DNA from: Phytohabitans flavus | GTDB taxonomy: Bacteria > Actinomycetota > Actinomycetes > Mycobacteriales > Micromonosporaceae | NCBI RefSeq assembly: GCF_011764545.1 | Contig: NZ_AP022870.1 | Span: 372,001 to 436,000 of the forward strand | DNA: 64,000 nt | Direction of reading: 5' to 3' | Part shown: positions 30,739-61,806 of the stretch, one piece after another | Layout of the letters: the number at the start of each line of letters is the position of its first letter | How positions within the stretch are numbered: position 1 is the first letter of the stretch | Made by a program: the position numbers and the translations under genes | Notes under the pieces: generated by a model | Databases searched by the model: none | The model's input: only the letters and a program-made list of their open reading frames with translations | Told to the model about the DNA's origin: nothing

Positions 30739-31176
30739 CGGGATCGGACCTCGATCCTGAAAGATCTGTAGATCCGTTTCAAGATATGGGTTTGCGCTGC
30801 CGCGATGTCCGCCGGGCACCGGACCGTCGCTCCCGCGGCCTCACCCTCCGCGGTTCACAGTCCAACCCCGGTCAGCCTGGCCGATGGCGAGGGCTGGGCG
30901 GGCCGCCCAGCCCTTGATCAGGGGGCGGCGCGCGGTTCGAGATGCGTCCGTGGCGAGAAATTGCCCCTGGAGGGGCTAGGGTCGCCACGGACGACGCGGG
31001 CCCGTCCGGAGCCGACCCGCGGTGCTCGGGGCGGGGCGCATCGGTGCGCCCAGCTTGAGAGCCCCGCGCAAAGCACGCCCTAGGCCTACCGGGCTGGTGC
31101 TGTTTGGTTGTGCGAACGCGGAGGGTGAGGCCGCGGGAGCAGCGGTCTGGACCACGACGGACATCGCGGTAGCTCA
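30739..31176. repeat. Intergenic element A with ~62-bp terminal inverted repeats
   Basis: Fills most of the 633-base gap 30607-31239. Left arm 30796-30859 and right arm 31109-31176 are inverted copies of one core containing GCTCCCGCGGCCTCACCC and a GGTCCGGACC-like block. Outside the left arm, CTTGAA-GGATCT-like bases match the tails of the 59 kb and 61 kb copies. The centre holds a GGCGCATCGGTGCGCCCAGC block also found in the 61 kb copy and a TCGCCACGGACG block found in the 43 kb copy. No gene inside. Confidence 0.72.
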
Positions 31177-42929: not shown

Positions 42930-43474
42930 GAGCTACCGCGACGTCCGTGGTGGTCCGGACCGTCGCTCCCGCGGCCTCACCCTCCGTGCTTCACACCCCC
43001 ACTGCCGACCTTGCGCCCGGCGGCGCGGACTTTCCTCGATCGACGCAAGCGGCGTTGTGTCGCGCTGCGATCGTGGCGAAAAGTTGCCTCTCCGGGGTCA
43101 ATGAATCGCCACGGACGGCCAGAGCACGCACCGATCAAGGCCACGCCCCTTTCCGAGCGCCGGCTATCCACGGTGATCGCCTTGATCGGCGGGATGGGTC
43201 GGAGCGCGGAGCGATCGTGGTACAGATCTGCCCCCAGAGGGGCCGGTAAGTACCATGATCTGCCGGATTGCGTCCGGTCGCAGCGCTAGATCAAGGGATA
43301 CAGGTGTTCGCGATTCGCCCGGCTTGGTGCGTCGCGGGACAGGCGGGCCGTGGCCGCACTGCGGGCCGGGCCGGCCAACTGCCGGCCGGGCCGGCCAGGG
43401 CTGGGGTTGTGAATCGCGGAGGGTGAGGCCGCGGGAGCAGCGGTCCGGACCACCGCGGACGTCGCGGTAGCTCA
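42930..43474. repeat. Intergenic element B with terminal inverted repeats
   Basis: Occupies the gap after permease 2. Left arm 42930-42996 and right arm 43408-43474 are inverted copies of the core (GAGCTACCGCGACGTCCG outer end). The centre includes TCGCCACGGACG, shared with element A, and GCCGGCCGGGCCGGCC. No gene inside. Confidence 0.75.
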
Positions 43475-52390: not shown

Positions 52391-52506
52391 GAGCTACCGC
52401 GACGTCCGCGGTGGTCCAGACCGCCGCTCCCGCGGCCTCACCCTCCGCGTTCGCACAACCACACCCGCCTGCGGGGGTCCGGACCACCGCGGACGTCGCG
52501 GTAGCC
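52391..52506. repeat. Intergenic element C, short palindromic copy
   Basis: Left arm full (about 60 bases, GAGCTACCGCGACGTCCGCG outer end), then only a 20-base centre and the outer 30 bases of the right arm. Ends together could fold into a long stem. Lies between two genes on the minus strand. Confidence 0.72.
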
Positions 52507-59289: not shown

Positions 59290-59425
59290 GCCCAACCGCG
59301 GAGGGCGAGGCCGCGGGAGCGACGGTCCGGACCACCGCGGACATCGCGGTAGCCCAACTTCCTTGAATTTGGATCTTTATCCGCGACGTGACACCGAGGC
59401 CACCCTGACTCCAAAAGCTCTCTGG
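59290..59425 (-). repeat. Intergenic element D, single arm with tail
   Basis: One copy of the core (59292-59354) and a 70-base outer tail matching the tail of element E at 61465-61530 at most positions (TTTGGATCTTT, GGCCACCC, AAAGCTCTCT). No second arm nearby. Fills most of the 276-base gap. Confidence 0.7.
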
Positions 59426-59501
59426 ACAGTCGACCGAAGACCTCCCGACCCCACCCGGTACCGTTGCGCAACGCAACCCGACACCCGACCGGCGGAAGCG
59501 C

Positions 59502-60428
59502 ATGCGCAGCAAGACCGAGCTCCAGGAGGCGATCCGCCGCGACCGGCGTACCGTCCTCGTCGTCAACACGCACTCGCGGCGCGGTCGGCGGCTCTACGAG
59601 ACGGTGCGCGCCCGGCTGGCGGCGGACGGATTCCACCTCCTCGAGACGTTTCCGATCGAGCGCCCCGACCAGCTGCCGGGGGTACTCGAGGCGGCGATCG
59701 CGCTGGGGCCCGACCTCCTCGTGGCCGGCGGCGGCGACGGCACGGTCAGCGAGGCGGCGCGGCACCTGGCGCACCGGGACATCGCGCTCGGCGTGCTGCC
59801 GCTCGGCACCACGAACAACTTCGCCCGCTCGCTCGCCGTCCCGCCCAACCCGGTCGGCGCGCTCGGCGTGCTCACCGGCGGCAAGGTGGCCGACGTCGAC
59901 CTGGGGCAGGCCGGCGAGACGATCTTCGCGAACCACGCGAACGTCGGCCTCTCCGCCCAGGTGGGCCTGCGCGTGCCGGCCCGGCTGAAGCGGCACATCG
60001 GCAAGTCCGCGTACCCGTTGACGGCGGTCGCGCGGCTGGCGTGGCACCGGCCCTTCCGAGCCCGGATCACCTCGGCCGGCGGCGAGCTCGAGGTGGTCAC
60101 CCACCAGCTGAACGTCGTCAACGGCCGCTTCCAGGCCGGGCAGCCGATCACCCGTGACGCCACTGTGGACGATCGCCTCCTGCACGTCTACCCGCTCGGC
60201 GGCCAGCGGCGGCGGCAGCTGCTCTCGGCGAGCCTGCGGCAGGCGCTCGCGGGGCGCCGCCGCCCCACCGCGCCACCGTTTCTGGCCACGGACGACCTGC
60301 TCGTGGAGACGGACCCGCCGCTGCCGCTGGACGTCGACGGCGAGGTGCACGGCCGCACCCCGGTCCGCATCCGCCTGCTGCCCAACGCGCTCCGCGTGCT
60401 CGCCGATCCGTCCTTCGTGGACAGCTGA
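59502..60428 (+). CDS. Lipid kinase / diacylglycerol kinase family
   Basis: 308 residues. ATP-binding GGGDGT (76-81) and LPLGTTNNFARSLA (about 100-112). C-terminal beta-sandwich. Phosphorylates diacylglycerol, sphingoid or undecaprenol-like lipids; which is unknown. Confidence 0.9.
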   Translation: MRSKTELQEAIRRDRRTVLVVNTHSRRGRRLYETVRARLAADGFHLLETFPIERPDQLPGVLEAAIALGPDLLVAGGGDGTVSEAARHLAHRDIALGVLPLGTTNNFARSLAVPPNPVGALGVLTGGKVADVDLGQAGETIFANHANVGLSAQVGLRVPARLKRHIGKSAYPLTAVARLAWHRPFRARITSAGGELEVVTHQLNVVNGRFQAGQPITRDATVDDRLLHVYPLGGQRRRQLLSASLRQALAGRRRPTAPPFLATDDLLVETDPPLPLDVDGEVHGRTPVRIRLLPNALRVLADPSFVDS

Positions 60429-61027
60429 CGCCGGCGGTCAGCTAGAGACCCATTAGAGTCAGGGTCACAGTCGATTTCTTGAGTTGGGTATTTCCCCGGT
60501 CCGCGTCAGCGGCAGACCGTATGCGCGGGGTACCCGGGGAAACGTGGAGCGCAGCGGAGCGTTTTCTTGGGGTGCTTTCCCGCGGGCACCGCCCAGGTCG
60601 GCGGCTCGCTAGCGCTCCCCGACCCCCGATCTGCGCTGCCAGGTCCGCTGTCCAAGCCCAACCCCGCGTCGACCCGGGATCGCTGTCGGGCGAGGGTAAG
60701 AGGTGGGTGCGCAGCGGTCGGGTTGGTGCACGCGGCAGACGGCGTCCGCCGTAGCGCCGATCAAGGCAACGCGAGCGCCCCTTTGGGCGCGGGTCTGTCA
60801 TGGATGGACCCCCGCCCAACCGCCGCGCTAGCTGGGCATTCTCCGAGGCCGCGGAGAGTGCCAGGTCCGGCCGGGTCCTTGAGGGCGTAGGGATTTCCTG
60901 CCGCCGTGGGGCGGCCCAGGGTGGGCCCGACCTTCATGATCGGCCTAAGCCGAGTGGCGTTGGTGTCCAGACCGTCGCTCCCGCAACCCCCACCCCTCCG
61001 CGCTTGACAACCCAGCACAACCCCAAG

Positions 61028-61074
61028 GTTTGTGAACGTTTCCTGCTGCTGGGGCAGCGGAAACCGTTCACAAA
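61028..61074. repeat. Long inverted repeat in element E
   Basis: TTTGTGAACG and CGTTCACAAA pair (10 bp), extended by TTTCC/GGAAA with one bulged C and inner GCTGC/GCAGC. Confidence 0.6.
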
Positions 61075-61096
61075 GGCAGAGGGGCCGCGCGGCTTT

Positions 61097-61150
61097 CTGG
61101 ATCTAGTCGACTTTTTGTCGTCCTGGCGGCAGAAAGTCGACTAGATCCAG
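61097..61150. repeat. Perfect 18-bp inverted repeat in element E
   Basis: CTGGATCTAGTCGACTTT (61097-61114) and its exact complement (61133-61150) around an 18-base loop. Unusually AT-rich stem for this genome; no transposase near. Confidence 0.75.
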
Positions 61151-61527
61151 AGCTCTGCGGGGATGCCCGCGACGCGGGCGGCCGAAAATCGGGCCTGGAT
61201 CGCCGGGTGCTGACACGCCGGGGCGACCACGCAGCGGCCCGGTCTGGCCAGGGGCCGGGTGAGTGGGCACCGCCGGGACCATCGGCGGGGCGCCCGCCCC
61301 CGGTCGGGGCGGGCACATCGGTGCGCCCAGCTCCAGAAGCCCGCCGACTGGCGGCCCGCCGCCGGTCGACCGGGCGCCCGCAGGCGGGGTGGGGTTGTGT
61401 GACGCGGAGGGTGAGGCCGCGGGAGCAGCGGTCTGGACCACGACGGGCGTCGCGGTAGCTCAATGTCCTTTGATTTGGATCTTTAGCCGCGACATGACGC
61501 CAAGGCCACCCCAACTCCCAAAGCTCT

Positions 61528-61806
61528 CTAGTTAGGCCCTAGCTCGGCGATGTGCCGCTGGATCAGCTCCTGGTCGGCGCCGGCCTCGATGAGCAGGTCG
61601 ACGGCGACTATCGCGTACCAGTTGTCGGCCATCGCGTGTGCGGCCGCGGCCTCCGCCAGCAGGTCGGGATCGGACGAGGCGGTGGCCAGCTCGGCCAGGG
61701 CGTCCGCGCGGGTCAGGCCCGGCCGGTAGCCGCCGGCGTGATCGTCGGCGATGCGGTGCAGCCGGTCGACGGTGGCCTGCCGATTCTGGGTACGGGTATC
61801 GGGCAC
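61528..61806 (-). CDS. Small hypothetical protein
   Basis: 92 residues from GTG 61806, acidic-helical (MPDTRTQNRQATVDRLHRIADDHAGGYRPGLTRADALAELATASSDPDLLAEAAAAHAMADNWYAIVAVDLLIEAGADQELI). No membrane helix. Family not recognised; stop lies in the edge of element E. Confidence 0.65.
   Translation of the reverse strand: MPDTRTQNRQATVDRLHRIADDHAGGYRPGLTRADALAELATASSDPDLLAEAAAAHAMADNWYAIVAVDLLIEAGADQELIQRHIAELGPN

Follow-up and report, generated by a model that had tools for sequence, protein, structure and literature searches.

The gene-free block between two convergent genes of Phytohabitans flavus is very probably a nonautonomous element of the IS630 (Tc1/mariner-like) kind, a MITE that would be moved in trans and that carries hairpins as passengers in a mosaic interior. 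Its sequence is dispersed through the genome, it ends in the inverted repeats of an IS630-family element found in related species, and its place is empty in relatives. Bacterial mobile DNA of this kind is known, and the element adds a new example whose build is unusually modular; literature searches on these repeats returned no description of them. Such elements would account for long intergenic gaps in a little-studied actinobacterial genus. Below, the window is the whole 64-kb stretch of DNA that was analyzed, and positions refer to it; G000 is the species' own genome (Phytohabitans flavus, 9.6 Mb), and G001 to G005 are five congeners.

Two palindromes in a gap without genes

The gap runs from 60429 to 61527 (1,099 bp), between a lipid-kinase gene on the forward strand (59502 to 60428) and a short gene on the reverse strand (61528 to 61806). 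The first-pass annotation had called 60440 to 61530 gene-free, and this was borne out: Pfam searches at E ≤ 0.1 found nothing in the gap's eight open reading frames, and gene calling by codon usage placed no gene there while calling both neighbors at their ORF ends. The same annotation had described two AT-rich palindromes, and both are present, with arms of 44% and 48% G+C versus about 70% around them. The perfect stem, given as 18 bp at 61097 to 61150, proved to be 19 bp long (61096 to 61114 with 61133 to 61151, found as two overlapping 18-bp matches). The bulged stem, placed at 61028 to 61074, lies at 61029 to 61074, is 86% complementary, and lacks strict complementarity at 3 of 21 positions.

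Both palindromes fold as RNA far better than dinucleotide shuffles (z = -10.1 and -6.5). The perfect stem is the sole 18-bp perfect inverted repeat with a loop of at most 30 nt in the 64-kb window, and none occurred in 20 first-order Markov copies of the window. Together with the dispersed copies, which contrast with zero matches in reversed-pattern controls, this refutes the idea that the palindromes arose by chance in a GC-rich intergenic stretch. In own-genome searches, the two palindromes and nearly all of the remaining block turned out to be dispersed repeats (Table 1).

Table 1. Features of the block and of a related solo end, in window coordinates
Feature	Position	Strand	Observation
Whole element, very probably an IS630-type MITE	60442-61531	+	Absent at the orthologous place in 4/4 relatives; head and tail in order at 20/40 places
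Element proper	60445-61528		Between TA at 60443-60444 and TA at 61529-61530; CTAG at both ends
Left terminal inverted repeat, CTAGAGACCCATTAGAGTCAGGGTC, degenerate	60442-60466	+	17-18/25 identical to G004 IS630 ends; family consensus 20-21/25
Right terminal inverted repeat, reads CTAGAGAGCTTTGGGAGTTGGGGTG	61507-61531	-	21/25 identical to IS630 ends
TAG stop of neighboring gene	61528-61530		Supplied by the right-end CTAG; ORF list and gene calls
Core repeat, genus-specific	60494-60665	+	Hairpin GGTCCGC..GCGGACC and a long interrupted hairpin
53-bp block in core	60525-60577	+	Contains the short stem AACG..CGTT; lacking from the other 24 own copies examined
Middle module	60736-60831	+	Several other copies have it too, between head and tail
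Inverted partial tail motif	60958-61016	-	With 61389-61445, brackets both hairpins
Palindrome 2, hairpin family P2, TTTGTGAACG..CGTTCACAAA	61029-61074	.	34 own-genome arm matches, 20 aligned palindromes
Palindrome 1, hairpin family P1, GATCTAGTCGAC..GTCGACTAGATC	61096-61151	.	26 exact-arm palindromes in own genome, 33 aligned
Two-palindrome unit	60990-61484	+	Recurs as one piece, 86% identical, at G000:C1:3933699-3934197
Tail1 motif, independent dispersed repeat	61403-61462	+	Elsewhere mostly in outward-facing pairs around a hairpin
Solo right end (tail1 and right terminal repeat), same family	59297-59427	+	84% identical to 61403-61529

A recurring head and tail, and IS630-type ends

A BLAST search of 60430 to 61540 against the own genome (9.6 Mb) returned 133 matches. 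Two parts recur among the copies, a conserved head, consisting of 60438 to 60524 (head1) joined to 60578 to 60714 (head2), and a conserved tail (61403 to 61531). At 20 of 40 examined loci, head2 and most of the tail occur in the same order and orientation, with a head-to-tail span of 238 to 966 bp. Of the 25 copies that show both head1 and head2, 24 have the two joined with no base between them; the exception is the window copy, in which a 53-bp block separates them. We considered whether this block (60525 to 60577) was an insertion unique to the window and rejected this, as copies in G002, in G005, and some in G003 carry it too; the window copy therefore belongs to a long subfamily that the block marks. 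A solo right end lacking a head lies just upstream of the lipid-kinase gene, at 59297 to 59427, and a further terminal repeat is found at window position 30748.

When heads and tails are aligned, their likeness ends at CTAGAGA on both sides. The left consensus, CTAGAGATCTTTCAGGGTCGGGGT, and the right end, CTAGAGAGCTTTGGAGTTGGGGT, form an imperfect inverted repeat, and a pattern made for these terminal repeats was found in five of the six genus genomes and had no match in any of them when reversed. The suggestion in the first-pass annotation that the palindromes might act as transposition ends was thus half right. As a transposable element, the block is bounded by the CTAGAGA inverted repeats at 60442 and 61531, and it carries the palindromes as cargo in its interior.

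Facing pairs of the pattern revealed full IS630-family copies with the same ends, 1,173 to 1,175 bp long, of which seven are in G004 and one is in G002. They hold a transposase in two overlapping frames, both of which match the IS630 model NF033545 (E = 1e-24 and 6e-26, each half alone scoring below the 100-bit cutoff set for the whole protein) and also PF13358/PF13592. Since five G004 copies share an identical C-terminal transposase half, these sequences suggest that IS630 was recently active there. At L348 (G004:C1:542298-544683), two copies with the same orientation are separated by about 40 bp, and a G002 copy (L354) is interrupted by another transposase-like reading frame. At G004:C1:8699103-8700683 (L353), a full IS630-type copy adjoins a 411-bp element with matching ends and the core inside, so that IS and MITE stand side by side.

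In the own genome, we found no transposase with matching ends. One IS630-type gene is present at 1561310, 58% identical to the G004 protein, along with one fragment; we rejected this gene as the mover, as its inverted repeats differ. Given that the partner ends are found in congeners and the own IS630-type gene has others, the element appears to be an orphan IS630-type MITE. An active-looking IS630 in one species and orphan nonautonomous copies in another make the life cycle of a bacterial MITE traceable.

Empty sites and the CTAG target

The element is absent from the window site in all four relatives in which both flanks were found (G002, G003, G004, and G005); in G001, only the downstream side was found, so this genome is not among the informative ones. 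The flanks meet directly in G003 (left flank to 60442, right flank from 61538), where the joined flanks differ by several bases and the window's right edge, 61532 to 61537, is unmatched. In G005, about 19 bp separate the matched flanks. The orthologous gap of G002 measures about 80 bp and holds a different hairpin repeat, and that of G004 is 1,051 bp long and does not contain the window element. G003 and G005 also lack a second own copy (L080).

IS630 is said to prefer the TA in CTAG, going by the title of a 1991 report by Tenzen and Ohtsubo. Both ends of our element are flanked by TA inside CTAG, and no clean single TA is readable at the empty sites of the window copy or L080; judging from the ends, TA was probably duplicated. 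ISY100, of the IS630 family, is described as inserting into TA and duplicating it (PMC2170065). Among the distinct terminal-repeat ends at the loci sampled, 73 of 99 have CTAG and 26 do not. The CTAG forms the TAG stop codon of the gene outside in 23 of these 73 cases, lies elsewhere in intergenic DNA in 49, and falls inside a called ORF in 1.

This raised the possibility of stop-codon targeting beyond CTAG, which we dropped, as background CTAGs give about an equal share: 51 of 206 CTAGs in 73 genus loci are stop codons (a count that includes some CTAGs that are element ends themselves), as are 5 of 28 in the window. Given this similarity to the background, the CTAG target alone can explain placement at gene ends. 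CTAG is scarce in genes and is often a stop codon in these GC-rich genomes, which offers a simple reason for where the elements are found.

A genus-specific core that can spread without the ends

The core pattern had 98 matches in the own genome, 119 in G003, 29 in G004, and 7 in G001 (G002 and G005 were not in this sample), versus 0 to 5 in 77 genomes from the family's other genera and 0 to 3 in reversed controls. Among the matches listed in a scan of named genomes, a list that may not include the own genome, only Phytohabitans suffuscus, P. maris, and 'Micromonospora sp. CPCC 205371' appeared. We classified the surroundings of 153 core copies: 66 lie between convergent genes, 59 between tandem genes, 9 between divergent genes, and 5 inside a gene call, with 14 in unknown context. 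Using an ungapped end pattern on 54 own copies, we found neither end in 28, the left end only in 17, the right end only in 5, and both in 4; in G003 and G005, many cores lack terminal repeats altogether. Given that core-only copies are this common, the core can spread without terminal repeats.

The first-pass annotation had also raised a structured RNA, to be checked by covariation among copies. Applied to the core, this idea would mean that a conserved RNA gene (an sRNA or riboswitch-like) sits in otherwise ordinary intergenic DNA, which we consider very unlikely. The core is 83 to 89% identical between species, and an alignment of 55 copies had 18 cells changed on both sides of a pair, compared to 9.7 ± 2.0 in shuffles (0 of 500 as high) and 0 in slid controls. 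This test used hairpins drawn by hand from the sequence, whereas the RNAalifold structure differs and has one covarying pair, and the 55 copies were hand-picked from 90 "short" sequences. The division into "short" (90) and "long" (98) cores is itself unreliable, since it includes chance matches upstream. Only 3 pairs change on both sides, the core's covariation score (0.041) is not above the slid controls (0.012 to 0.049), the RNAalifold covariation term is -0.16, and shuffled sequences fold about as well as the core (z = -0.7 and -0.8).

Placement weighs further against an RNA gene. The core was absent from all 22 orthologous loci of six G003 core sites (eight were searched, and six were compared, with the relatives whose loci were returned), which argues against a functional RNA bound to its locus. 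Copies between tandem genes show no orientation preference (29 sense, 30 antisense). Nothing in the window scored above an Rfam gathering score; relaxed thresholds gave only microRNA-type hairpin models below the cutoff. Compensatory changes, the check that the first-pass annotation had proposed, occur in P2, are weak in the core, and are nearly lacking in P1.

Exchangeable hairpins in a tail1 cassette

P1 has at least 33 dispersed copies in the own genome, and P2 has about 20, also counted in the own genome. The exact-arm palindromes of P1 are absent from all five congeners. We nevertheless rejected P1 as species-specific, given a degenerate copy in P. suffuscus (locus L285); exact arms alone are confined in this way. 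The P2 arms had no match in a reversed control. Across 20 P2 copies, 88.6% of cells are paired, and the covariation score of 0.188 exceeds both shuffles (0.144 ± 0.015; 0 of 500 as high) and slid controls (0.03 to 0.11). The 33 P1 copies are nearly invariant, with one covarying pair. These alignments indicate that the stems are kept as stems, most strongly in P2, and upkeep of an RNA or of a DNA-level palindrome would both fit.

The two families are also unevenly placed. P2 lies between convergent genes in 17 of 20 cases, with 2 tandem and 1 divergent, and P1 is convergent in 14 of 34, tandem in 11, divergent in none, inside a gene in 1, and of unknown context in 8. For comparison, the 56 gaps of the window include 9 convergent, 9 divergent, and 38 tandem ones. 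As far as position can tell, such placement would fit either tolerance at gene ends or a role in stopping transcription from both sides.

Could the palindromes be selected bidirectional terminators or 3'-end RNA structures, with the surrounding repeats being secondary? This would be compatible with the MITE reading, and we regard it as possible but doubtful. The excess of convergent sites, the P2 covariation score, and the presence of another hairpin repeat in the orthologous G002 gap all speak for it. However, neither stem is followed by a T-run, no intrinsic terminator was matched between 60300 and 61700, and in other species the corresponding gap either lacks a hairpin or contains another kind. 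Moreover, only 6 of 21 P2 pairs change on both sides, a number not above shuffles (382 of 500 were as high), one P2 pair is broken in 11 of the 20 copies, and P1 contributes its single pair; DNA-level correction of quasi-palindromes could also keep the arms symmetrical.

The hairpins recur within a larger arrangement. Adjacent copies of tail1 (within 700 bp of each other) face outward in 16 of 17 pairs, with one direct pair and no inward one, and between them there is often a long hairpin belonging to one of at least four families. The window element has this same build, with the inverted partial tail, P2, P1, and then the tail at 61403. Elsewhere in the window, outward-facing tail1 pairs fill two other long intergenic gaps (30814 to 31155 and 42950 to 43453), and a 35-bp inverted repeat at 52393 to 52505, 94% complementary, consists of two tail1 motifs separated by 43 nt. 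Further long hairpin repeats, located at gene ends and unlike P1 and P2 in sequence, were seen in G005 (L121, L123, and L124) and G002 (L093), one example being TGATCAGGGAGTTGGTG.. in G002 and G005. Since gene-end hairpins in the relatives differ in sequence from P1 and P2, the comparison suggests that each species has its own hairpin set.

Long, dispersed intergenic hairpins and outward-facing inverted motifs are also what would be expected of REP/BIME-type sequences, which a Y1 (RAYT) transposase would have spread, as in enterobacteria, using single-stranded hairpins as its substrate. We think this origin very improbable here: Y1_Tnp (PF01797) had no match in the own genome at E ≤ 0.001, and the same search was positive in 5 of 14 control genomes.

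A model for the element and its passengers

Taking the IS630-type MITE as the preferred explanation, we propose that the element entered the convergent gap after the species split from the sequenced congeners. The CTAGAGA ends would be recognized by a transposase supplied from elsewhere, which would excise the element and paste it at a TA inside CTAG, duplicating the TA; this transposase would since have gone missing from the own genome. Coding sequence contains few CTAGs, and roughly one CTAG in four here is an amber stop, so insertion would often occur at the end of a gene without disrupting it. In the window, the element's CTAG serves as the downstream gene's stop codon, and the gene is intact. 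The interior is a mosaic, in which the genus-specific core is followed by a BIME-like cassette of inverted tail motifs bracketing exchangeable long hairpins, with P1 and P2 being two of these. The presence of exchangeable hairpins at convergent gene ends raises the question of whether they are passengers or terminators; they may be tolerated cargo or useful transcription stops.

A broader reading is that these sequences represent a modular, genus-specific kind of mobile DNA: at convergent 3' ends, a cassette of outward-facing motifs would accept long hairpins of different families (P1, P2, and at least two more), and a core of about 120 to 175 nt would spread with and without IS630-type ends. 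We offer this only tentatively and think it rather unlikely. If it is true, hairpins would be exchanged like terminator modules, and the process behind the exchange would be distinct from both RAYT activity and plain IS630 transposition.

Comparison with known systems

The BIMEs and REP sequences of enterobacteria resemble our element in having paired inverted motifs around other sequence, in their intergenic location, and in their mosaic structure. They differ in that the own genome here has no Y1 transposase, and in that an inverted pair here encloses a long, near-perfect hairpin, of which several kinds with unrelated sequences occur. The Tc1/mariner-like insertion sequences IS630 of Shigella and ISY100 have a TA target, in line with the TA flanks of the window element, and ISY100 is described as duplicating it (PMC2170065). 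Both are autonomous, with a DDE transposase that has an N-terminal HTH, whereas the window element codes for nothing.

By build and partner, the closest systems are RUP of pneumococcus and Correia/NEMIS of Neisseria. The latter is described as a MITE with TA termini and two size classes about 50 bp apart (PMC2229807), reminiscent of the 53-bp block here, a likeness drawn from description; the window element is much longer and has additional hairpin cassettes. RUP has been proposed to be moved by IS630-Spn1 and, as described, is like our element in being noncoding, intergenic, and present in about 100 copies, in targeting TA, and in having short terminal inverted repeats in common with an IS630-family element (PMC2229807). 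However, RUP is a uniform 107 bp, whereas the window family is a variable mosaic of about 0.3 to 1.1 kb that includes other repeat families, and its IS630 partner resides in congeners rather than in the own genome.
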